From contig NZ_BARG01000052.1 in the NCBI RefSeq assembly GCF_000376565.1, forward strand, positions 124,001-188,000: a stretch of DNA of 64,000 bases. Reading direction: 5' to 3'. The notes beneath the pieces are model-generated. The model was not told the origin of the DNA. It saw only the letters and a list, made by a program, of their open reading frames with translations, and did not search any database. The stretch's first letter is position 1. Each line of letters opens with the position of its first letter. Made by a program: the position numbers and the translations under genes. This stretch comes from Streptomyces hokutonensis (lineage in GTDB: Bacteria; Actinomycetota; Actinomycetes; Streptomycetales; Streptomycetaceae). Below are positions 3 through 37,698 of this stretch, piece by piece.

Positions 3-1574
<1,572 letters not shown>

Positions 1575-8286: not shown

Positions 8287-8826
8287 TTGCGGGTGCTGTC
8301 GAACGCCGCGCTCGTCGTCATCGGCGGACTCCCCGGCACCGGGAAGACCACGCTGTCCCGACTCCTGGCCGCACGCATCGGGGCGGTGCACCTGCGCGTC
8401 GACACCATCGAGCAGGCGCTCGTCCGCTCCGGACTGGCGCGACACCCGGTCGGGCCGGCCGGCTATGTCGTCGGGTACGACCTGGCCGAGGAACACCTCC
8501 GACAAGGGCTCACGGTGGTCGCGGAGTCGGTCAACCCGCTGGCCGTCACCCGGGACAGCTGGCGCGACGTGGGGGCCAGGGCGGGCGTGCCGACCGCGGA
8601 GGTCGAAGTCATCTGCTCGGATCCGGCCGAGCACCGGCACCGCGTGACCTCCCGCTCGGTCGACATTCCCGGTCTGACGCTTCCGGACTGGGAGGAGGTC
8701 CGCCGACGCGACTACGAACCCTGGAACCGTGAGCACATCACCCTCGACACCGCCGGAGCCGTGCCGCAGGAGTCGCTCAACTCCCTTCTCCATCGCCTGG
8801 ATTCACTTCGACCAGGAAACTCTTGA
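8287..8826 (+). CDS. P-loop kinase-like ATPase (AAA_33 type)
   Basis: This 179-residue soluble protein has a Walker A GLPGTGKT (about 14-21), the segment LRVDTIEQAL after the first strand, and a C-terminal lid-like region rich in Arg. The fold resembles small-molecule kinases such as gluconate kinase, APS kinase or chloramphenicol phosphotransferase. The substrate is not identifiable. It begins with TTG directly after the monooxygenase stop, or GTG two codons later, and closes the operon. The promoter of the next operon overlaps its stop codon. A role in phosphorylating the imported compound is possible but unproven. Confidence 0.7.
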   Translation: MRVLSNAALVVIGGLPGTGKTTLSRLLAARIGAVHLRVDTIEQALVRSGLARHPVGPAGYVVGYDLAEEHLRQGLTVVAESVNPLAVTRDSWRDVGARAGVPTAEVEVICSDPAEHRHRVTSRSVDIPGLTLPDWEEVRRRDYEPWNREHITLDTAGAVPQESLNSLLHRLDSLRPGNS

Positions 8827-8851
8827 CGCCGAGAGAACAGTCGATCTACGG
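8823..8851 (+). promoter_or_regulatory. Sigma70-like promoter of the riboswitch-controlled operon
   Basis: The -35 TTGACG (8823-8828) and -10 CTACGG (8846-8851) are separated by 17 nt. The predicted start is near 8857, exactly where the riboswitch P1 helix begins. The -35 box overlaps the stop codon of the kinase gene. Confidence 0.55.
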
Positions 8852-8970
8852 TGAGCGCGAGCTACGAGTTCCGGTGATCAAGCCCTGGCTGGCCGGACGG
8901 CAACCCTCGACGCAGTGGGGTGCCCCAGGTGACGGCTCGGCGGATGTTCCTGTTCTGCAAGTGCGTTCCC
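8850..8970 (+). promoter_or_regulatory. SAM-IV-type riboswitch
   Basis: The segment has the conserved core of SAM-I/SAM-IV aptamers: AAGCCC, then GGCAACCCTC, then GTGGGGTGCCCCAGGTGA. A P1 helix CGAGC (8858-8862) pairs with GCTCG (8935-8939). The downstream GCAAGTGCG segment (about 8958-8966) fits the SAM-IV pseudoknot region. SAM-IV elements occur in actinomycetes before sulfur genes and are expected to switch expression off when SAM is high. A near-identical core is found at 33490-33605 on the other strand. Confidence 0.85.
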
Positions 8971-9009
8971 ACCGGCCCTGGTTGTCGGCGACACCCCTAG
9001 GAGGACGAC

Positions 9010-9087
9010 GTGGCGAACGGCCTCGTGCTGTGCTCCCGGCGTCATGTGGATCTGCTGCTGGTCTCCAGCTGTCTCTGTCACAGCTGA
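9010..9087 (+). CDS. Cysteine leader peptide (25 aa)
   Basis: A GTG start follows AGGAGG with a good 5-nt gap. The short peptide ends SRRHVDLLLVSSCLCHS. The RRH(V/I)D block with C-terminal cysteine codons matches the leader peptides known upstream of actinobacterial sulfur genes, thought to sense charged tRNA-Cys by ribosome stalling. It lies between the SAM riboswitch and the binding-protein gene, 114 nt ahead of the latter. Sister peptides are at 33333, 37615 and 55787. Confidence 0.8.
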   Translation: MANGLVLCSRRHVDLLLVSSCLCHS

Positions 9088-9201
9088 CCGCTCCTCGCAC
9101 AGCACCTCCACCCTCACCCTTCACGCGACAGCGCGCGCCCGGCATGTCCTGCCTGCCGCACCCCTTTCGCGCACCCACCCATGCGGAGACAGAGACCAGC
9201 C

Positions 9202-10827
9202 ATGGCACACTCCAGCACCGTCAGACCCCTCAGCGCCCTGTCCCTCGGCACGGCCCTCCTGGTCGCCCTTACAGGCTGCACCAGCAGCAAGACGTCCACC
9301 GGCTCCGACGGCCCGACGATCACCGTCGGCACCACCGACCAGGTGACCAGCCTCGACCCGGCGGGCGCCTGGGACGCGGGCTCCGGCACCATCGAGAGCG
9401 AGGTCTACGCGACCCTCCTCAGCGTGAAGAACGGCGCCACCGAGGTCTCCCCGGACCTGGCCACCGGCATCAAGCTGACGGGTCCCAAGGAGTACACGGT
9501 GACTCTGAGGAAGGGCCTGAAGTTCGCGAACGGCCACCAACTCACCTCCTCCGACGTCAAGTTCAGCTTCGACCGCACGCTGAAGATCGCCGACGAGAAC
9601 GGCCCCTCGTCCCTCCTCTACAACCTCGCCTCGGTCGCCGCCCCGACACCGACCACGGTCGTCTTCACCCTCAAGTCCGCCAACGACACCTTGTTCCCCC
9701 AGGTGTTGTCGACCGCGGCGGGCTACATCGTCGACGAACAGACCTTCCCCGCGGACAAGATCCTCGACGACAAGACAATCGTCGCGGCCAAACCGTGGAA
9801 CGGCCCGTACGGCGTCACGAGCTACGACAAGAACTCGCTGGTCTCCTTCACTCACAACAGTGACTACGGCGGCCAGTTGGGCACCCCGAAGACCAAGAAC
9901 ATCCAGCTCAAGTACTACACCGACGCCAGCAACCTGAAGCTCGACGTCCAGCAGGGCACGGTCGACGCCGTCTACCGCACCCTCACCACCGCCGACCTCG
10001 ACGACCTGGCCAAGAAGAAGGACATCAAGGTCCACACCGGCTCGGGCAACGGCATCCGCTACATCGTCTTCGACTTCCAGACCCAGCCCTACGGCACCAA
10101 GACCAAGGACGCCGACAAGGCCAAGGCACTCGCCGTCCGCCAGGCCGTCGCCGACTCCGTCGACCGGGCCCAACTCGCCCAGCAGGTCTACAAGAACAGC
10201 TACCAGCCGCTGTACAGCTCGGTACCCGACGGACTCACCGGCGCCACCGACTCCTTCAAGTCCCTCTACGGCGACAAGAAGGGCGGCCCAGACAAGGCGG
10301 CCGCCGCCGCACGGCTCAAGGCGGCGAAGGTGACCACCCCTGTCACCCTCAACCTCCAGTACAACAGCGACCACTACGGCTCGTCCTCGGCCGACGAGTA
10401 CGCCCTCGTCAAGACCCAGCTCGAAGCCACCGGGCTGTTCAAGGTGAACCTCCAGTCCACCGAGTGGACGCAGTACGGCAAGGACCGCGTCAAGCACCTC
10501 TACCCGCTCTACCAACTCGGCTGGTACGCGGACTACTTGGACGCCGACAACTACCTCTCGCCCTTCTACTCGGCCAACAGCTGGGTCGCCAACGGCTACG
10601 ACGACCCCGCCGTACGCTCGCTGATCCTGAAGGAGGAGACGGAGATCGATCCGGCCAAGCGCACCGAACTCCTCAAGGAGGCGCAGGACAAGGCCGCCGC
10701 GCAGGTGCCGCTGCTCCCGCTGCTCCAGGGGTCGACCGCGATCGTCACCCGTACCGACGTCAGCGGTGTGCCGGACGCGTTGACCAGCGCGTACACCTTC
10801 CGTTGGGCAGGACTCTCGAAGAAGTGA
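9202..10827 (+). CDS. ABC transporter substrate-binding lipoprotein (SBP family 5)
   Basis: This 541-residue extracellular binding protein has a signal peptide ending in lipobox VALTGC, with the lipidated cysteine at C26 counted from the ATG at 9202. An ATG at 9181 would add seven residues and is a weaker choice. The mature sequence starts with a Ser/Thr linker and the family opening ITVGTTDQVTSLDPAGAWD. It heads an operon with two permeases, a fused ATPase and a dipeptidase, so peptides are the likely cargo. Expression should respond to both SAM and cysteine through the two upstream elements. Confidence 0.92.
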   Translation: MAHSSTVRPLSALSLGTALLVALTGCTSSKTSTGSDGPTITVGTTDQVTSLDPAGAWDAGSGTIESEVYATLLSVKNGATEVSPDLATGIKLTGPKEYTVTLRKGLKFANGHQLTSSDVKFSFDRTLKIADENGPSSLLYNLASVAAPTPTTVVFTLKSANDTLFPQVLSTAAGYIVDEQTFPADKILDDKTIVAAKPWNGPYGVTSYDKNSLVSFTHNSDYGGQLGTPKTKNIQLKYYTDASNLKLDVQQGTVDAVYRTLTTADLDDLAKKKDIKVHTGSGNGIRYIVFDFQTQPYGTKTKDADKAKALAVRQAVADSVDRAQLAQQVYKNSYQPLYSSVPDGLTGATDSFKSLYGDKKGGPDKAAAAARLKAAKVTTPVTLNLQYNSDHYGSSSADEYALVKTQLEATGLFKVNLQSTEWTQYGKDRVKHLYPLYQLGWYADYLDADNYLSPFYSANSWVANGYDDPAVRSLILKEETEIDPAKRTELLKEAQDKAAAQVPLLPLLQGSTAIVTRTDVSGVPDALTSAYTFRWAGLSKK

Positions 10828-11906
10828 GCGCCCTGACGCAGGACACCCCCGGCGCCGTCGCCACCCCGGCCGACGGCGCCGCCGGGTACGGACTCGCCCG
10901 CTACCTGGTGGTCCGCTTCCTCCTCATCATCCCCACCGTGTTCATCCTGGTCAGCCTGGTCTTCTTCCTGATGCGCGCCACCGGCGACCCGATCAGCGCG
11001 GCGTTCGGCGACCGGCTCACCCCGGACCAGCTCCAGGCGAAGCTCCACCAGGCGGGCTACGACCGGCCGTTGCTCACCCAGTACCTGGACTATCTGAAGT
11101 CCCTGGCCACCGGCGACTTCGGCCGCACCGTCACCGACAACGAACCGGTCACCCACGTCCTGGGCACCTACGGCGCCGCCACCGTCGAACTCGCCTGCTA
11201 CGCCCTCCTGGTGGCCCTCGCCGTCGGTGTGCCGCTGGGCATGGTGGCGGCCACGTACCGGGACCGGGCGCCCGACGCGGCCCTGCGCCTGTTCGCCGTC
11301 CTGACCTACGCCACCCCCGTGTTCTTCGCGGGCCTGCTGCTGAAGCTCGTCTTCGCCATCCAACTCGGCTGGCTGCCCGCGTCCGGCCGGGCGAGCACCG
11401 ACGTCCAGCTGTTCCTCCAGAACCAGACCAGCACGACCGGCTTCTACCTCGTCGACGCCATACGCAGTGGTGACGGGGCCGCCGTCGCCGACGTCCTGGA
11501 GCACGCCGTACTGCCAGGCGTGGCCCTCGGCCTGCTCGTCGCCGGCATCCTGCTGCGGCTGGTGCGCACGAACCTGATCGGCACCCTCGGCGCCGACTAC
11601 GTCGAGGCGGCCCGCTCCCGGGGCGTGGCGCCCTTCCGCTTGGTGACGCGACACGCGACCCGACCTGCGCTGATCCCGGTCGTCACCGTCCTGGGACTCC
11701 AGGTCGCCGGGCTGCTCGGTGGCGCGGTGCTGACGGAGACCACCTTCGAGTGGAAGGGTCTCGGCTACGAACTCGCCCACTATCTGACGGTCCGTGACTT
11801 CCCGGCGGTGCAGGGCATCGTGGCCCTGTTCGCCGTCGTCGTGGCGGTGACGAACTTCCTCGTCGACGTCGTCGCGGCCCTCATCGACCCCCGAGTGAGG
11901 TATTGA
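10824..11906 (+). CDS. ABC transporter permease, DppB type
   Basis: This 360-residue inner-membrane permease starts at a GTG overlapping the upstream TGA. It has an N-terminal cytoplasmic stretch of about 25 residues, a first membrane helix (VVRFLLIIPTVFILVSLVFF), the DFGRTVTDNEPV extracytoplasmic segment and an EAA loop ADYVEAARSRGVAPFRLV. The C-terminus DPRVRY is typical of DppB. It forms the importer channel with the next gene, three bases downstream. Confidence 0.92.
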   Translation: MSALTQDTPGAVATPADGAAGYGLARYLVVRFLLIIPTVFILVSLVFFLMRATGDPISAAFGDRLTPDQLQAKLHQAGYDRPLLTQYLDYLKSLATGDFGRTVTDNEPVTHVLGTYGAATVELACYALLVALAVGVPLGMVAATYRDRAPDAALRLFAVLTYATPVFFAGLLLKLVFAIQLGWLPASGRASTDVQLFLQNQTSTTGFYLVDAIRSGDGAAVADVLEHAVLPGVALGLLVAGILLRLVRTNLIGTLGADYVEAARSRGVAPFRLVTRHATRPALIPVVTVLGLQVAGLLGGAVLTETTFEWKGLGYELAHYLTVRDFPAVQGIVALFAVVVAVTNFLVDVVAALIDPRVRY

Positions 11907-11909
11907 GCC

Positions 11910-12890
11910 GTGGCCCAACTCCTCGTGCGACGGCCCACGTTGCTGCCGGACCGCCTCCGCGCACGCCTGCGCACCGGTGGCCCGGTGCAGCGCGCGATGC
12001 TCCTCACCGGCGCCCTGCTCACCGTGCTGTTCGTCCTCACCGCCCTCCTCGGACCGCTCCTCGCACCGTACGGATACGCCCAACTCCAGGACGGGGGAAG
12101 GCTGTTCGGGTCGCAGCAACACCCGAGCGGCGCCCATCCGCTGGGTACCACCATCGCCGGGTACGACGTGCTGTCCCGCACGGTGTGGGGCGCCAGGACC
12201 GCGCTGGAGATCATCCTCGCCGCGCTGCTGCTCTCGGTGGTCCCCGGCACCGTTCTCGGACTGGCCTCCGGCTATCTCGGCGGGCGCCTCGACCGGCTGC
12301 TGGTGGGGCTGGCAGACGCGCTCTACGCGTTCCCGCCGCTGCTGCTCGCCATCGTCATGTCGATCGTGATCAGCGGCGGACAGTCCAGCCTCGTCGGCGG
12401 CCTCGGCGCGGCGGCCTGCTCGGTCGCGGTCGCGTTCGTGCCGCAGTACTTCCGTGTCGTACGGGCCGAGGTGACCCGGGTGAAGGCGGAGCCCTTCGTC
12501 GACGCGGCCCGGGTGATCGGCACCGGCACCTGGCGGATCATGTTCCGGCACGTCCTGCGCAACTCGGTCCGCACCCTCCCCCTGATCTTCACCATCAACG
12601 CCTCCGAGGCCATCCTCACCCTCGCCGGACTCGGCTTCCTCGGCTTCGGCATCGAACCCAACTCTGCCTCCGAGTGGGGCTACGACCTCAACCGCTCGGT
12701 CGCGGACGTCACTTCGGGCCTGTGGTGGACCGCGATCCCACCGGGCCTGGCCATCGTGCTCACCGTGCTCGGCACGACCCTGCTCGGCGAGAGCCTCACC
12801 GACCTCGCCGACCCGCGACTGCGACGACGCGGCGGTACGAGCACGAAGGCGACCGCCACCGCAACGGACGGAGGTGCGGACGATGACTGA
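11910..12890 (+). CDS. ABC transporter permease, DppC type
   Basis: This 326-residue permease begins with GTG three bases after the upstream stop. It has the DppC pattern: an N-terminal helix (about 30-52), the segment HPLGTTIAGYDVLSRTVWGART, then the transport domain with EAA loop EPFVDAARVIGTGTWRIMFR and the GFLGFGIEP motif. Its C-terminus is extended by a charged Thr/Asp tail and overlaps the ATPase start by 8 nt. Confidence 0.92.
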   Translation: MAQLLVRRPTLLPDRLRARLRTGGPVQRAMLLTGALLTVLFVLTALLGPLLAPYGYAQLQDGGRLFGSQQHPSGAHPLGTTIAGYDVLSRTVWGARTALEIILAALLLSVVPGTVLGLASGYLGGRLDRLLVGLADALYAFPPLLLAIVMSIVISGGQSSLVGGLGAAACSVAVAFVPQYFRVVRAEVTRVKAEPFVDAARVIGTGTWRIMFRHVLRNSVRTLPLIFTINASEAILTLAGLGFLGFGIEPNSASEWGYDLNRSVADVTSGLWWTAIPPGLAIVLTVLGTTLLGESLTDLADPRLRRRGGTSTKATATATDGGADDD

Positions 12891-14547
12891 CCTCCTGCGC
12901 ATCGAGGACCTGCACGTCACCTTCGACACCGACGCCGGCGCGGCGCCCGCCGTGAAGGGCGTGAGCCTGTCCGTCGCCCCCGGCGAGATACTCGCCCTCG
13001 TCGGCGAGAGCGGCAGCGGCAAGACCGTCACCGCCAAGTCGGTCCTGGGGCTGCTGCCCGCCACCGCGACCGCCCACGGCCGGGTCCTGCTCGGCGACGG
13101 CACCGCCGACCCCGCCGAGGACGTCCTCGCCGCGTCCCCCGCCCGGCTGCGCGCCCTGCGCGGCACCCACGCAGCGATGGTCTTTCAGGAGCCCTCCACC
13201 GCGCTGAACCCCGTGTTCACCATCGGCTGGCAGCTCACCGAAGGCCTGCGCGCCCACGGACACGGCGGCAGCAAGGCCGAACGCCGGACGCTTGCCGTCG
13301 AATGGCTCGACAAGGTCGGCATACCCGACCCCGCCACCCGCGTGAACCACTACCCCCACCAACTCTCCGGCGGCCAGAAACAGCGCGCCGTCATCGCCAT
13401 GGCCCTCGCCCTCGGCACCCGGCTCATCGTCGCCGACGAGCCCACCACGGCCCTCGACGTCACCGTCCAGGCGGAGATCCTCGAACTCCTGCACCGCTGC
13501 CGCACCGACTTCGGCACCGCCGTGCTCCTCATCACCCACAACATGGGCGTCGTCGCCGACCTCGCGGACCGGGTGGCCGTGATGAGCGAGGGCGAGGTCG
13601 TCGAACAGGCCCCGGTACGCGAGCTGTTCGCGGCGCCCGCCCACCCGTACACCCGCGAACTCCTGGCCGCCGTACCGGTCTTCGGGGAACAGAGCCGGAC
13701 ACCGACGTCCACGACGGGCGACGAGCAGCCCGTCGTACGGGCTGCCGAGCTGGTCGTGGACTACCCCGGGCGACTGGGCAGGAAGGGCTTCCGCGCGGTC
13801 GAGGGCGTGAGCTTCGAGATCAGGCCGGGCGAGGTGCTCGGACTGGTGGGGGAGAGCGGCAGCGGCAAGACCACCATCGGCCGGGTGGTCGCCGGTCTGA
13901 CCGCCGCGACCGGCGGTGAACTCACCGTGTTCGGCGAGCCGTTGACGGCTCGGCGTCGCACGCGCGGCCGGGCCGGACACATCGGCTACGTCTTCCAGGA
14001 CCCCGCGGCCAGTTTCAATCCGCTGCTCACCATCGCCGACAGCGTCGCGGAGCCGTTGACCGTCCACCGGCGCGAACTCGGGGCCACGGCGATCCGTGCC
14101 GAGGCCGAGGCGTTGCTGAACTCCGTTCATCTGCCCCGGAGTTACGCCGACCGCTATCCGCACGAACTCAGCGGCGGACAGCGTCAGCGCGCGGCCCTGG
14201 CCCGGGCGCTCGCCCTGCGGCCCCCACTGATCATCGCGGACGAACCGACCTCGGCCCTCGATGTGTCCGTCCAGGCGAAGGTGCTCGACCTCTTCACCGA
14301 ACTGCAAAGGGAGTTGGGCTTCGCGGCGCTGTTCATCAGCCATGACCTCGCGGTGGTGGAGCAGGTCGCCGACCGCGTCGTCGTACTGCACCGGGGCCGG
14401 ATCGCCGCGTCGGGATCCACCGCCGCGGTGCTCGGCAACCCGCAGGACGACTACACGCGGCGGCTGGTCGCCTCCCTGCCCGTCGCCGACCCGGTACGGC
14501 AGGGCCGCCGCGAGCACGCCCTCGACGAAGGAGTGGCAAGCACATGA
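12883..14547 (+). CDS. Dual ABC ATP-binding protein (DppD-DppF fusion)
   Basis: This 554-residue ATPase has two nucleotide-binding domains. The first shows GESGSGKT, LSGGQKQRAV and ADEPTTALD. The second shows [18 protein letters not shown] and ADEPTSALD. Unlike the fusion at 5386, it lacks the cysteine-containing tail after the second domain. The ATG at 12883 has GGAGG eight bases upstream and overlaps the permease gene. The dipeptidase gene starts in its stop codon (ATGA). It energises uptake for the lipoprotein at 9202. Confidence 0.92.
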   Translation: MTDLLRIEDLHVTFDTDAGAAPAVKGVSLSVAPGEILALVGESGSGKTVTAKSVLGLLPATATAHGRVLLGDGTADPAEDVLAASPARLRALRGTHAAMVFQEPSTALNPVFTIGWQLTEGLRAHGHGGSKAERRTLAVEWLDKVGIPDPATRVNHYPHQLSGGQKQRAVIAMALALGTRLIVADEPTTALDVTVQAEILELLHRCRTDFGTAVLLITHNMGVVADLADRVAVMSEGEVVEQAPVRELFAAPAHPYTRELLAAVPVFGEQSRTPTSTTGDEQPVVRAAELVVDYPGRLGRKGFRAVEGVSFEIRPGEVLGLVGESGSGKTTIGRVVAGLTAATGGELTVFGEPLTARRRTRGRAGHIGYVFQDPAASFNPLLTIADSVAEPLTVHRRELGATAIRAEAEALLNSVHLPRSYADRYPHELSGGQRQRAALARALALRPPLIIADEPTSALDVSVQAKVLDLFTELQRELGFAALFISHDLAVVEQVADRVVVLHRGRIAASGSTAAVLGNPQDDYTRRLVASLPVADPVRQGRREHALDEGVAST

Positions 14548-15770
14548 CCGACACCGTGGTGGACCTCGTCGAAGAGGTACTGAGCAGTACTCCCGTCTTC
14601 GACGGTCACAACGACCTGCCCGTGGCGCTGCGTGCCCGCTCCGGCTACAGCGTCGAGGGGCTCGACGCGGGACGTGCCGACCTCCACACCGACCTGCCCC
14701 GGCTGCGCGCCGGCGGGGTCGGCGCACAGTTCTGGTCGGTGTACGTCTCGTCCCAACTCCCCGAACCCGAGGCCGTGGTGGCCACGTTCGAGCAGATCGA
14801 CGCCGTGTACCGGCTCGTCGCCCGCTACCCGGACGCCCTGCGGATCGCCTACACCGCCGGCGACGTCGAGCGGGTGATCGCCGACGGACGGATCGCCTCG
14901 CTGCTCGGCATCGAGGGCGGCCACAGCCTCGCCGAGTCACCGGGCGTCCTGCGGTCGTACGCCCGGCTCGGTGTCCGCTACGTGACCCTCACCCACAACG
15001 ACAACACAACCTGGGCGGACTCGGCCACCGACGAGCCCGGCGTCGGCGGCCTGAACGACACCGGCCGTGCGATCGTCGACGAACTCAACCGCACCGGCGT
15101 GCTGGTGGACCTCTCGCACGTCGCCGAGTCCACCCAGCGCGCGGCGCTCGCCGCCTCGACCTCACCGGTACTGTTCAGCCACTCCTCGGTACGCGCCCTC
15201 AACGATCACCCGCGCAATGTCGCCGACCCGGTCCTGGAGCTGCTGAGGGGCAACGGCGGTGTCATCCAGCTCACCTTCGTCCCGTACTTCATCTCGGCCG
15301 AAGTCGCCGAGTGGGCGCGGGAGTTGCAGGCCGAACGCGAACGTCTCGGGCTGCCCTCGCAGCCCTGGAGCTGGCCGCGCGCACCACGGCCGGGAGAGGA
15401 TCCGGCGCAGGTCGCCGAGGAGCTCGCGGCCGGCTTCTCGGCGAGCGCCGACGACCGGCTGCGGCGCTGGACCGAGGAACATCCCCGGCCCGAGGTGACG
15501 GTGGCCCAGGTCGCCGATCACGTCGAGCACGCCCGCGAGGTGGCCGGGCGCGATCACATCGGCCTCGGCGGCGACTACGACGGCGTCGACCACCAGCCCA
15601 CCGGACTCGCCGACGTCTCCGGCTACCCGGTGCTGCTGCGCGAACTCGCCGACCGCGGCTGGTCCCGGTCCGACCTGGAGGCCCTGACCGGCCGCAACGT
15701 GCTGCGCGTCCTGCGCGAGGCCGAGGACCGCGCGACCGAACCGCTGTGGCCGACGGCTCCGCTGCGGTGA
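14544..15770 (+). CDS. Membrane (renal-type) dipeptidase, peptidase M19
   Basis: This 408-residue zinc dipeptidase has the M19 metal motif HxD at H22-D24 (FDGHNDLP), the bridging glutamate region LLGIEGGHS, then DLSHV, FSHSSVRAL and HIGLGGDYDG. No signal peptide is visible, so it is probably cytoplasmic. Family members split dipeptides, including Cys-Gly and unusual or D-containing ones. Being fused into a peptide importer operon under SAM and cysteine control suggests it releases sulfur amino acids, for example cysteine from Cys-Gly, but that assignment is inference. Confidence 0.9.
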   Translation: MTDTVVDLVEEVLSSTPVFDGHNDLPVALRARSGYSVEGLDAGRADLHTDLPRLRAGGVGAQFWSVYVSSQLPEPEAVVATFEQIDAVYRLVARYPDALRIAYTAGDVERVIADGRIASLLGIEGGHSLAESPGVLRSYARLGVRYVTLTHNDNTTWADSATDEPGVGGLNDTGRAIVDELNRTGVLVDLSHVAESTQRAALAASTSPVLFSHSSVRALNDHPRNVADPVLELLRGNGGVIQLTFVPYFISAEVAEWARELQAERERLGLPSQPWSWPRAPRPGEDPAQVAEELAAGFSASADDRLRRWTEEHPRPEVTVAQVADHVEHAREVAGRDHIGLGGDYDGVDHQPTGLADVSGYPVLLRELADRGWSRSDLEALTGRNVLRVLREAEDRATEPLWPTAPLR

Positions 15771-31477: not shown

Positions 31478-33097
31478 TCAGCCGATCCAGGTGTCGTGCA
31501 GCTGGATCCGACTGGAGGCGTCGAAGTTCAGGTTGTGTACCTTCTTCGCCACGCCGATCTGCGTCTGGAGCTCCACCACCGGCACGTCGTAGGCGTTCCG
31601 CACGATCAACTGCTGCGCCTGCTCCACCAGTTGGCTGCGCTTGGTGGCGTCGGTGGTCGCCGCCTGCCCGGTCAGCGCGGTGTCCAGCGGGGTCGTGGGA
31701 AGGCGGTAGAAGTTGGCGAGCTCGGTGGAGAAGGAACTGCGCAGGATGTCCGGGTCGGCGCGGGTCACGTTGCTCCATACGGCGTCGTAGTCGCCGGACT
31801 GAAGTGTCGGGGTGAGCTGGGTGACCTGGACCTGCTTGAGCGTCAGGCCGACTCCGACAGCCTTGAGTTGCTGCTGGATCAGCTCCAACGCGGGCTGGTT
31901 CGTGGCCGAGTTGGGGATCCAGTCGACCGTCAGGCTCAGCTTCTTGCCGTCCTTCGTCCGGATGCCGTCGCTGCCGGCCTTCCAACCGGCCGCGTCCAGC
32001 AGGGACTTCGCCTTGGCCGCGTCGGTCGTCAGGTCCGAGGACAGGTCGGCGTAGTCGGGTGTGGTGTGGGCCAGGATGCTGGTCGCGGGCTGGGTGCCGG
32101 TCGGGAACACCGTGTCGGCGATCTGCTTGCGGTCGATGGCGAATCCGATGGCCTGGCGGACTCGCGCGTCCTTCAGCACCGGCCGCGAGTTGTTGAAGGC
32201 CAGGCCGAACACGACTCCGGGATTGGCCCGCCGTTGAAGGGTTACCTGACCGCCCTTGAGGGCCGCCTCGTTGGCCTTGCCGACGCTGCTGATCGCGTCC
32301 ACCTGACCCGACTGGAGGCTGCCTGCCCGAACTCCCGCCTCGGGTACGACCTTGAAGACCACCTTGTCGAGATAGGCCTCGCCGCTCTTGGTCCACCGTG
32401 AGGACCCCCAGGCGTACCCGGTGCGCTTGGCGAGCGTGATCGACTGGTTCTGCACGTACTGCTTCAGCACGAAGGGCCCGGAGCCGACCACCCCCTGGCT
32501 GCACTTCTCCTGAGGCGACTTCTTCGCGCTCGCCGACGACTCGATGCCCAGCGAGTGCGTCGAAGTGGCTTGCAGGAACTGGGCGTTGGGCTGCTGGAAG
32601 GTCACCTTGACGGTGAGCGGATCGACCACGGTCGTGCTCTTCACGCCGCTCAGATAGCCCTCGGCGAGGGTGCCCAGCGCGCCGAGCTTCGGCACCGCGT
32701 CGAAGTTGTCCTTGACCACCTGCGCGGTCAGCTTGGACCCGTCGCTGAAGGTGACACCCGATCTGAGATGGAACGTGAACGTGGTCGCGTCGGAGCTGAT
32801 GTCCCAGCTCTTCGCCAGCCACGGCACGATCTTGCCGGTCGCGGGGTCCTGGTCGGTGAGGGAGTCCACGATCTGCCGTACTGAGTAGATGGTGTCGTTG
32901 CTGGCCACCTGCTGCGGGTCCACGCAGCCGGCGTCGGAGCCCACCGCGAATGTGAGGGTGCCACCGGACCTGGCCTGTCCGCCGCCGCTGTCGGAGCCGC
33001 CGCCTCCCGATCCGCAGGCGGTCAGCAGGACGCTGGTGGTCAGGAGGGCGGCCAGCGCCGTCCAACGGGTGGGTCGGATATCCGGATGTGCTCTCAC
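31478..33097 (-). CDS. ABC transporter substrate-binding lipoprotein (SBP family 5)
   Basis: This 539-residue binding protein has a signal peptide ending in lipobox LLTAC (C28) followed by a Gly/Ser linker. The mature part has the family segments DARVRQAIGFAIDRKQIADTVFP and AKSLLDAAGWK. The GTG at 33097 is chosen because AGGAG lies eight bases upstream; a GTG at 33121 lacks one. It is the first structural gene after the riboswitch and leader peptide, 235 nt downstream of the leader stop. Confidence 0.92.
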   Translation of the reverse strand: MRAHPDIRPTRWTALAALLTTSVLLTACGSGGGGSDSGGGQARSGGTLTFAVGSDAGCVDPQQVASNDTIYSVRQIVDSLTDQDPATGKIVPWLAKSWDISSDATTFTFHLRSGVTFSDGSKLTAQVVKDNFDAVPKLGALGTLAEGYLSGVKSTTVVDPLTVKVTFQQPNAQFLQATSTHSLGIESSASAKKSPQEKCSQGVVGSGPFVLKQYVQNQSITLAKRTGYAWGSSRWTKSGEAYLDKVVFKVVPEAGVRAGSLQSGQVDAISSVGKANEAALKGGQVTLQRRANPGVVFGLAFNNSRPVLKDARVRQAIGFAIDRKQIADTVFPTGTQPATSILAHTTPDYADLSSDLTTDAAKAKSLLDAAGWKAGSDGIRTKDGKKLSLTVDWIPNSATNQPALELIQQQLKAVGVGLTLKQVQVTQLTPTLQSGDYDAVWSNVTRADPDILRSSFSTELANFYRLPTTPLDTALTGQAATTDATKRSQLVEQAQQLIVRNAYDVPVVELQTQIGVAKKVHNLNFDASSRIQLHDTWIG

Positions 33098-33612: not shown

Positions 33613-33642
33613 ATCGTACGGAGCGTCGTCCTCGTACGTCAA
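33613..33642 (-). promoter_or_regulatory. Sigma70-like promoter of the riboswitch-controlled operon
   Basis: On the minus strand TTGACG (33642-33637) and TACGAT (33618-33613) are 18 nt apart. The predicted start near 33606 coincides with the first bases of the riboswitch. Confidence 0.65.
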
Positions 33643-37614: not shown

Positions 37615-37698
37615 ATGCCGTTGTCGCAGCCGCTGACCCGCCGCCGCGCCGTGGACCTCGTCCGGGTGGCCGCCGCGCTGTGTCGGGCGACCGGCTGA
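37615..37698 (+). CDS. Cysteine leader peptide (27 aa)
   Basis: The peptide ends TRRRAVDLVRVAAALCRATG, the classic form of actinobacterial sulfur leader peptides (RR-x-VDLVRV-x-x-x-L-C-R). The single Cys codon lies five codons before the stop. About 124 nt separate it from the sulfite-oxidase-like gene. That gap contains GC-rich inverted repeats (for example CCGGAAAGGCCGG at about 37735) that could form alternative structures for attenuation. Confidence 0.85.
   Translation: MPLSQPLTRRRAVDLVRVAAALCRATG

Follow-up and report, generated by a model that had tools for sequence, protein, structure and literature searches.

The 64,000-nt stretch of Streptomyces hokutonensis DNA analyzed here (the window, which is positions 124001 to 188000 of contig C127 in an 11.8-Mb genome, G000) carries at 8823-9201 a SAM-IV riboswitch aptamer (SAM, S-adenosylmethionine) stacked on a short cysteine leader gene ahead of a peptide importer. 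Both RNA elements exist, and the leader is a real gene. The likeliest model, to which we give about an even chance, is a nested two-storey 5' untranslated region (UTR) in which SAM gates a cysteine leader ahead of the importer. Both sulfur end products would thus probably influence whether the importer is made. A sequence-only reading of this DNA had placed a promoter, a SAM-IV core and an AGGAGG-led 25-residue peptide with CLC near its end in 8823-9201, before a peptide importer-dipeptidase operon. Its coordinates were right, and every one of these parts was recovered. The parts of the stack are as follows, with SD for Shine-Dalgarno sequence and ORF for open reading frame.

8823-8852 (+): promoter, with -35 TTGACG at 8823-8828, an 18-nt spacer and -10 TACGGT at 8847-8852 (sequence and conservation in the loci compared)
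8860-8969 (+): SAM-IV riboswitch aptamer, RF00634 (cmscan 76.0 bits, gathering score 38, E = 9.9e-12, full length 1-116)
8972-8988 (+): short hairpin after the aptamer and ahead of the leader SD, where class A has a conserved hairpin (RNAalifold)
8999-9004 (+): SD of the leader, AGGAGG (sequence)
9010-9087 (+): cysteine leader gene, GTG at 9010, VANGLVLCSRRHVDLLLVSSCLCHS, 25 codons plus TGA at 9085-9087 (ORF, coding-type substitutions)
9057-9079 (+): leader segment complementary to the lipoprotein ribosome-binding region (9057-9065 with 9192-9200, or 9071-9079 with 9188-9196; duplex prediction)
9188-9200 (+): proposed sequestered stretch immediately 5' of the lipoprotein start codon (same duplex prediction)

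We refer to this stack as class B (the window's own copy is locus L072) and to a second one, at about 33 kb, as class A. The sequence-only reading had overlooked the second SAM-IV and leader (33605-33333, reverse strand), together with two cysteine-leader-like ORFs that lack SAM-IV. The parts of the second stack are listed here.

33613-33642 (-): promoter, TTGACG at 33642-33637, 18 nt, TACGAT at 33618-33613 (sequence; class A loci compared)
33605-33492 (-): second SAM-IV aptamer, RF00634 (91.9 bits, E = 2.6e-15)
33458-33333 (-): second cysteine leader, VRHSSDPSVSIVSLTAATVFSRFSRRRHIDLQRFTSCLCRA, 41 residues (32.6 bits with NCBIfam NF042934, cut-off 27)
31478-33079 (-): another SBP_bac_5 lipoprotein, opening the second importer operon (Pfam 289 bits; TIGR04028 342 bits, below its cut-off)

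These two aptamers were the only elements in the window to attain a gathering score in the Rfam scan; no T-box did so. The DNA motif for RRH[IV]DL likewise occurs twice in the 64 kb, once per stack, compared with a mean of 0.00 in 100 shuffles, and both leaders finish in RRH[VI]DL....SCLC plus two residues. The class B leader has Cys codons at positions 8 (UGC), 21 (UGU) and 23 (UGU), so that UGU CUC UGU forms codons 21 to 23 of 25, close to the stop. It is not leaderless; it has the AGGAGG SD and about 150 nt of RNA 5' of its start if transcription begins at the aptamer. Against NF042934, a model of cis-regulatory attenuator leader peptides that the class A leader passes, the class B leader of the window stays below the cut-off (19.5 bits, E = 0.00056). 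Across G000 this model matches 25 places at E values up to 10, with 10 over the cut-off. Three of the 25, belonging to classes A, B and C (defined below), lie directly behind a SAM-IV, of which the genome has four.

Orthologs of the class B lipoprotein were found in 6 of 392 Streptomyces genomes, its own included, and all 6 have both SAM-IV and the leader (in L076 as the variant SRLHVDL). A named collection, which probably shares some genomes with the first, gave 11 Streptomyces class B loci, with SAM-IV in 10 and an intact leader in 10. In class A, an identity threshold of 78% for the lipoprotein gives 22 loci in the 392 genomes. The leader is present in all 22, and SAM-IV exceeds the model threshold in 21. 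One of the 21 (L079) is decayed, with 59.5 bits (40 Rfam bits) and changed core letters, and its cysteine leader is intact; its genome, G183, has an intact class B SAM-IV (L073). With our own model, the class B aptamers score 84 to 97 bits and those of the other 20 class A loci 108 to 117 bits, the latter with many invariant columns. The aptamer is absent from the remaining class A locus (L090), where the same promoter stands close upstream of the leader, and from S. longwoodensis (L243, class B), which has leader and promoter. Ag109_O5-1 (L249) has kept the aptamer, with a leader that lacks its stop and a lipoprotein that is a fragment, and a relative in Catenuloplanes japonicus (L250, 68%) has neither element. 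Among eight relatives at 51 to 59% identity (L100-L107), none has SAM-IV and five have the leader. Because the leader is kept where the aptamer is absent or decayed, it is the more constant and probably the older part, with SAM-IV as an addition that can be lost. These comparisons make SAM-IV look like a cassette that can be taken off an underlying cysteine attenuator.

The arrangement recurs well beyond the importer orthologs. RF00634 matched 118 of 121 Streptomyces genomes, and we read 67 Streptomyces loci (the 30 best, 33 at or below 100.9 bits outside G000, and the 4 of G000); at least 84 further places with scores in between lie outside this set. An upstream ORF (uORF) with Cys or Met codons follows the aptamer in 62 of the 67. 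It is a cysteine leader in 28 loci from 20 genomes and a micro-ORF of the type GTGAGCAAGCGAATGCGATAG in 34, and 5 loci have neither. The leader count used a wide pattern; a narrower one, [RK]H.[DE], gave 10 of 37 loci and missed the class C type DRAVDLLRVSSALC. Class C comprises 17 loci whose leader reads ...ADRAVDLLRVSSALCTAPG.. or a near variant. Elsewhere in 37 of the loci, the leader pattern occurred in 10 of 1,988 background windows, and 9 of these hits look like additional true leaders. In the class Actinomycetes, SAM-IV was present in 150 of 246 genomes. The 106 loci from that search (L108-L213) include 102 with a recognizable core, of which 92 are outside Streptomyces. An SD-led long ORF begins within 70 nt of the aptamer in at least 50 of the 92, and an RRHxDL-type or DLRR..S.LC leader was found in 6 (L151, L178, L181, L193, L194, and L198). 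Uorfs with two or more Cys codons followed 15 of the 92 aptamers, versus 27 of 1,360 control windows. Scavenging-type genes stand behind three of the six stacks, those inspected: an FMN reductase with an NMT1 binding protein (L151), a luciferase-like monooxygenase (L181), and an SBP_bac_3 protein (L194). Judged from the genomes compared, SAM-IV plus cysteine leader is a recurrent layout with a removable SAM-IV part and not a single curiosity.

The leaders show the substitution pattern of genes. In the 16-codon block ending at the last Cys region (22 class A, 6 class B, and 17 class C sequences), codon differences from the consensus were 66 synonymous to 31 nonsynonymous in class A, 13 to 3 in class B, and 34 to 12 in class C. 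Random single changes would be expected to give 37 to 107 (A) and 40 to 104 (C). By this measure, the leaders are evolving as coding sequence. Their Cys codons are TGT rather than TGC at a ratio of 63:20 (A, 35:7; B, 11:9; C, 17:4), compared with 5:25 in 16 genes of the window. TGT is rare in the window genes and preferred in the leaders, so the scarce codon stands at the point where a stalled ribosome would be needed.

The position of the promoter is conserved as well. We compared 26 loci with an intact aptamer, and TTGAC-N18-TAnnnT lies upstream of it in all of them (20 of 20 in class A and 6 of 6 in class B), ending 7 nt before the aptamer in 24 loci and 6 nt in 2. This strict pattern occurred in 1 of 300 and 5 of 1,000 control windows. 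A generic consensus promoter scan of 8700-9300 did not report the promoter at 8823-8852. In class C, TTGACA lies within 50 nt 5' of the aptamer at all 17 loci, the second hexamer is weaker and the strict pattern is found at 4; at the canonical loci it is absent (0 of 34). With the promoter 6 or 7 nt before the aptamer in classes A and B, transcripts of these loci are expected to start at the aptamer or right next to it. Leader starts lie 33 to 36 nt (A), 38 to 40 nt (B), or 26 to 33 nt (C) past the aptamer. For comparison, an ORF of 120 codons or more with an SD stands at 52 of 55 chosen non-Streptomyces loci, with a median start 39.5 nt after the aptamer; these 55 of the 92 were picked for a close long ORF and thus show the usual distance of a direct target, not the frequency of direct control. 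The leader therefore occupies the position that a directly following gene takes elsewhere, which is our main argument for nested control.

The nested model takes the parts, their order, the coding selection on the leader, the promoter, and the removability of SAM-IV as found above, and adds what we infer, namely SAM binding, the direction of the SAM effect, ribosome stalling, and an RNA switch. Transcription would start at the aptamer, which would decide initiation at the leader about 26 to 40 nt downstream, with less initiation when SAM is bound. When SAM is low, the leader would be translated, and the rare UGU Cys codons just before its stop would test for charged tRNA-Cys. With plentiful cysteine, the ribosome would run off and the leader 3' end could pair with RNA further down, turning the importer off. 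In the window copy, the partner would be the lipoprotein ribosome-binding region; in the second stack, it would be the 3' arm of a conserved hairpin. When cysteine is short, the ribosome would stall on the Cys codons, pairing would be blocked and the importer made. SAM would override cysteine because no ribosome can stall on a leader whose translation has not begun, and expression of the importer would require low levels of both SAM and Cys-tRNA. The fuller version of the idea, a riboswitch-gated attenuator that computes NOT SAM AND NOT Cys-tRNA, with a SAM cassette put on and taken off an older leader and a two-storey plan widespread in Streptomyces, is more tentative, and we put it somewhat short of an even bet.

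Several results weigh against this model. Locking the aptamer in the folding did not mask the leader SD. The class A SD was on average more open with the aptamer locked (0.53 versus 0.33 unpaired), and openness was lower in the locked than in the free state at only 4 of 20 class A, 2 of 6 class B, 7 of 17 class C, and 18 of 34 canonical loci. Because folding gives no SD masking, we take the sign and the step of SAM action from the usual behavior of SAM riboswitches. The loci L079, L090, and L243, with a leader and no working aptamer, indicate that SAM control is dispensable. The scan of 8700-9300 for a consensus intrinsic terminator found none. The leader duplex with the ribosome-binding region (RBS) is not significant at three class B loci (L074, L076, and L077), and in class B no compensatory changes were seen in it; L241 and L242 have CUG for CUC in the leader with no compensation in the RBS. 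In class A, no such duplex beats shuffles (22 loci, P ≥ 0.16). Further points of this kind come from two class A pairings described next: doubly changed pairs in the hairpin before the lipoprotein number 2, no more than in shuffles (426 of 500), and the covariation of the leader with the 3' arm of that hairpin is modest, its score being reached in 13 of 500 shuffles and its count of doubly changed pairs in 60 of 500.

In the window copy the leader-RBS duplex reaches -29.8 kcal/mol (P = 0.007), and it is also significant in L073 (P = 0.000) and L075 (P = 0.043). We do not take this pairing as the general mechanism: it is good in L072 and L073, no better than shuffles in class A, and not covarying. 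Pairing counts for class A refer to sets A4 (16 of the 22 loci, without L079, L090, L091, L097, L098, and L099) and A2 (20 of the 22, without L079 and L090). The GC-rich class A hairpin before the lipoprotein has 85.8% of cells paired, and its score (0.148 versus 0.097) was reached in 0 of 500 shuffles. The stretch of the class A leader from the Cys codons to the stop can pair with the 3' arm of this hairpin (94.5% paired, score of 0.217 versus 0.170), and slid versions of the pairing reach at most 65.6%. Leader-arm pairing and hairpin together have the geometry of an attenuator with two mutually exclusive pairings; scores of this type come out too high among related sequences, so we regard the evidence as suggestive. 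In class A, the alignment gives good support to a hairpin lying between the aptamer and the leader SD (99.2% of cells paired); its score was attained by 1 of 500 shuffles and its count of doubly changed pairs by 93 of the 500. At the corresponding class B hairpin (8972-8988; RNAalifold, columns 124-140 of A3), a sequence with changes on both sides exists for two of the five pairs, and two pairs are broken in one of the six sequences. Folds of 8858-9090 and 9010-9215 did not stand out in stability; 163 and 54 of 200 shuffles, respectively, equaled or surpassed them. Between leader and lipoprotein, L072 is rich in C (57 C and 24 G in 114 nt), which would fit a Rho site; we do not claim one.

The two elements could instead be independent controls acting in parallel, with SAM-IV affecting transcription, termination, or RNA decay and the leader working by its own cysteine attenuation. 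We regard this as rather unlikely. It would account for folding in which the aptamer gives no sign of masking the leader SD, for leaders that do without SAM-IV in the distant homologs L100-L104, and for the 9 of 10 over-cut-off leader matches in G000 that stand without one. Against it stand the leader start, which falls where a gene starts behind SAM-IV in other actinomycetes, and the hairpin that separates aptamer from SD, conserved in class A and probably also in class B. Another possibility is that the leader is an arrest peptide, whose RRHxDLxRxxS nascent chain would sense cysteine, redox state, or another metabolite in the tunnel instead of hunger at Cys codons. The RRHIDL residues ahead of the Cys codons are strongly conserved, and some class A leaders lack one Cys of CLC (SSFC in L056 and L091, SSLC in L096), as this view would allow. 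Yet every leader of class A (22) and class B (6) retains at least one Cys codon near the end, TGT is preferred among those codons, and differently shaped Cys-rich uORFs follow SAM-IV elsewhere, and we hold such an arrest peptide to be improbable.

That SAM-IV is a relic at these loci and that only the cysteine leader matters seems very improbable. Aptamers are absent or decayed at L079, L090, and L243, and the reverse case, an aptamer kept beside a broken leader, is seen only at L249, itself with a fragmentary lipoprotein; the scores and invariant columns of the aptamers at the other class A and class B loci speak for maintained elements. A chance neighborhood of two unrelated elements we give practically no credence and have rejected: a leader follows 28 of 67 aptamers, compared with 1 of 1,988 background windows when the 9 recognizable second leaders are set aside, and the stack recurs outside the genus at the six loci named above.

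Cysteine-responsive uORF attenuators of mycobacteria were reportedly described by Canestrari et al. in 2020, and the T-box of ubiG-mccBA is said to sense tRNA-Cys. SAM-IV, cysteine leaders, and riboswitch-uORF interplay are each already known. No SAM-IV aptamer stacked on a cysteine leader was described in the literature searched, in which most subscription papers were out of reach. The judgment of the sequence-only reading that the arrangement is not a textbook one agrees with this outcome, a close precedent being a B12 riboswitch-uORF pair (PMC11260477). The window aptamer resembles known SAM-IV elements in its full-length RF00634 match with a conserved core, its actinomycete host, and the sulfur genes downstream. 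It differs in that a cysteine leader adjoins it, whereas the available parts of the reports on Streptomyces lividans (PMC8079986) and Corynebacterium glutamicum (PMC3890552) place no leader peptide behind the aptamer. In S. lividans, SAM-IV precedes a cysteine desulfurase gene that does not appear among the leader-peptide cases in the available text of that paper (PMC8079986). The mycobacterial attenuators, in the accessible portions of their reports (PMC13236596 and PMC9094748; further candidates in PMC1262725 and PMC4633059), have in common with the window that a short ORF ahead of sulfur genes carries Cys codons close to its end. They are described there as leaderless, whereas in the window a strong SD precedes the uORF and an aptamer stands in front of both. 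Among NCBIfam leader models, NF042934, NF042933 (Ms5788A), and NF042936 (Ms4527A) match the window leaders in part.

Other systems bring a riboswitch together with a uORF or a tRNA signal. The B12 riboswitches of Mycobacterium tuberculosis metE and ppe2 control translated leaders, and that of ppe2 is needed by the downstream gene; in the text available these uORFs are not described as amino acid sensors, and the word cysteine is absent (PMC11260477). The introduction of that paper, in the same partial text, calls the effect of riboswitch-associated uORFs previously unaddressed before the B12 case is treated. In Xanthomonas, a SAM-I riboswitch binds uncharged initiator tRNA, so that SAM and tRNA signals converge on one 5' UTR as proposed here; there the RNA binds the tRNA directly, the tRNA is initiator Met-tRNA and not Cys, and the abstract has no leader peptide (PMC7270179). 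The ubiG-mccBA operon of Clostridium acetobutylicum combines a SAM signal and a T-box signal on one sulfur operon (Andre 2008, as cited in the accessible part of PMC9943018), but its SAM riboswitch acts on an antisense RNA and with the opposite sign for SAM. A report on contiguous riboswitches (PMC12452182) contains neither leader peptide nor uORF.

If the nested reading is true, a single RNA leader would check the two end products of sulfur assimilation, in an inbuilt order of precedence, before the cell makes an importer. Close relatives with and without the aptamer would form a natural experiment in which the added value of the SAM layer is directly measurable. Many Streptomyces SAM-IV riboswitches may then also have been assigned the wrong direct target, because a uORF and not the annotated gene comes first after the aptamer.

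The genes behind the window stack are those of the peptide importer-dipeptidase operon that had been read from the sequence (ABC, ATP-binding cassette).

9202-10827 (+): SBP_bac_5 substrate-binding lipoprotein (Pfam PF00496, 212 bits)
10824-11906 (+): ABC permease, DppB type, start read as overlapping the lipoprotein stop (best NCBIfam hit in 10800-11906, Opp2B, 255 bits, below cut-off)
11910-12890 (+): ABC permease, DppC type (NCBIfam, best Opp4C, 177 bits, below cut-off)
12874-14547 (+): double ABC ATPase (NCBIfam GsiA model, 518 bits, below its cut-off)
14544-15770 (+): M19 membrane dipeptidase (Pfam PF01244, 351 bits; best solved relative 3id7)

The nearest named relatives of the lipoprotein are from Streptomyces sp. 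MBT53, MBT65, and P3 (97, 96, and 94% identity). Upstream of this operon lie a luciferase-like monooxygenase and another peptide-type importer, and a luciferase-like monooxygenase also stands near the second importer operon. The region reads as organosulfur scavenging, with the sulfur content of the substrates judged from gene types, and the importer behind the window stack is probably a sulfur-scavenging one. Two further leader-like ORFs in the window lack SAM-IV: a third cysteine leader at 37615-37698 on the forward strand (MPLSQPLTRRRAVDLVRVAAALCRATG), with TTGACA 35 nt 5' of its start, and a fourth ORF at 55861-55787 on the reverse strand (MTVLVTRRHVDYVRVTSTGCPALS; NF042934 19.4 bits, below cut-off).

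Class C stands before other genes. Behind the copy in G000 (L068) are an ABC permease, a cystine-type SBP_bac_3 protein, a GNAT enzyme, and an NtaA/DmoA-type monooxygenase, and many other class C loci share the permease start MSEPPG... Class C loci such as L068 have a second cysteine leader, DL[LQ]RVAGALC, about 3.3 to 4.0 kb after SAM-IV and near a luciferase-like monooxygenase gene; at L044, a leader of the DLLRVAGALC kind has SAM-IV in front.

The Streptomyces micro-ORF (L005-L034, L036, L051, L055, and L071) has 6 codons, conserved as M[SNVMIR][KQM]RM[RC], and lies 14 to 63 nt after the aptamer; at L036 it reads MRMRMR. In many canonical loci its stop lies directly next to a GGGC..GCCC hairpin that has a pyrimidine-rich tail; at L071, the gene behind it encodes a SufS-like pyridoxal phosphate (PLP) enzyme. 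It is possibly a Met-sensing or a structural element, and the literature passages available contained no mention of it. CGAATG micro-ORFs were found in 16 of the 102 Actinomycetes loci (9 of them in Streptomyces) versus 0 of 810 control windows. Outside Streptomyces (L108, L110, L113, L148, L156, L159, and L164), they are very short ORFs behind SAM-IV, most with Cys codons (for example, MCCCRMN and MCIRRMCCR), and may be related to the Streptomyces micro-ORF. At L117, L172, L124, and L154, uORFs behind SAM-IV have Cys at or near the end (MRASLHPLTRCCCR and MRASLRRSDRCCRR); the one at L117 precedes a PLP enzyme of Cys/Met metabolism. At L102, a subthreshold match to Rfam Scr3202 (1189-1280, forward strand; 40.5 bits, cut-off 52) lies just upstream of the cysteine leader, and the Scr3202 small RNA annotation might correspond to the leader region.

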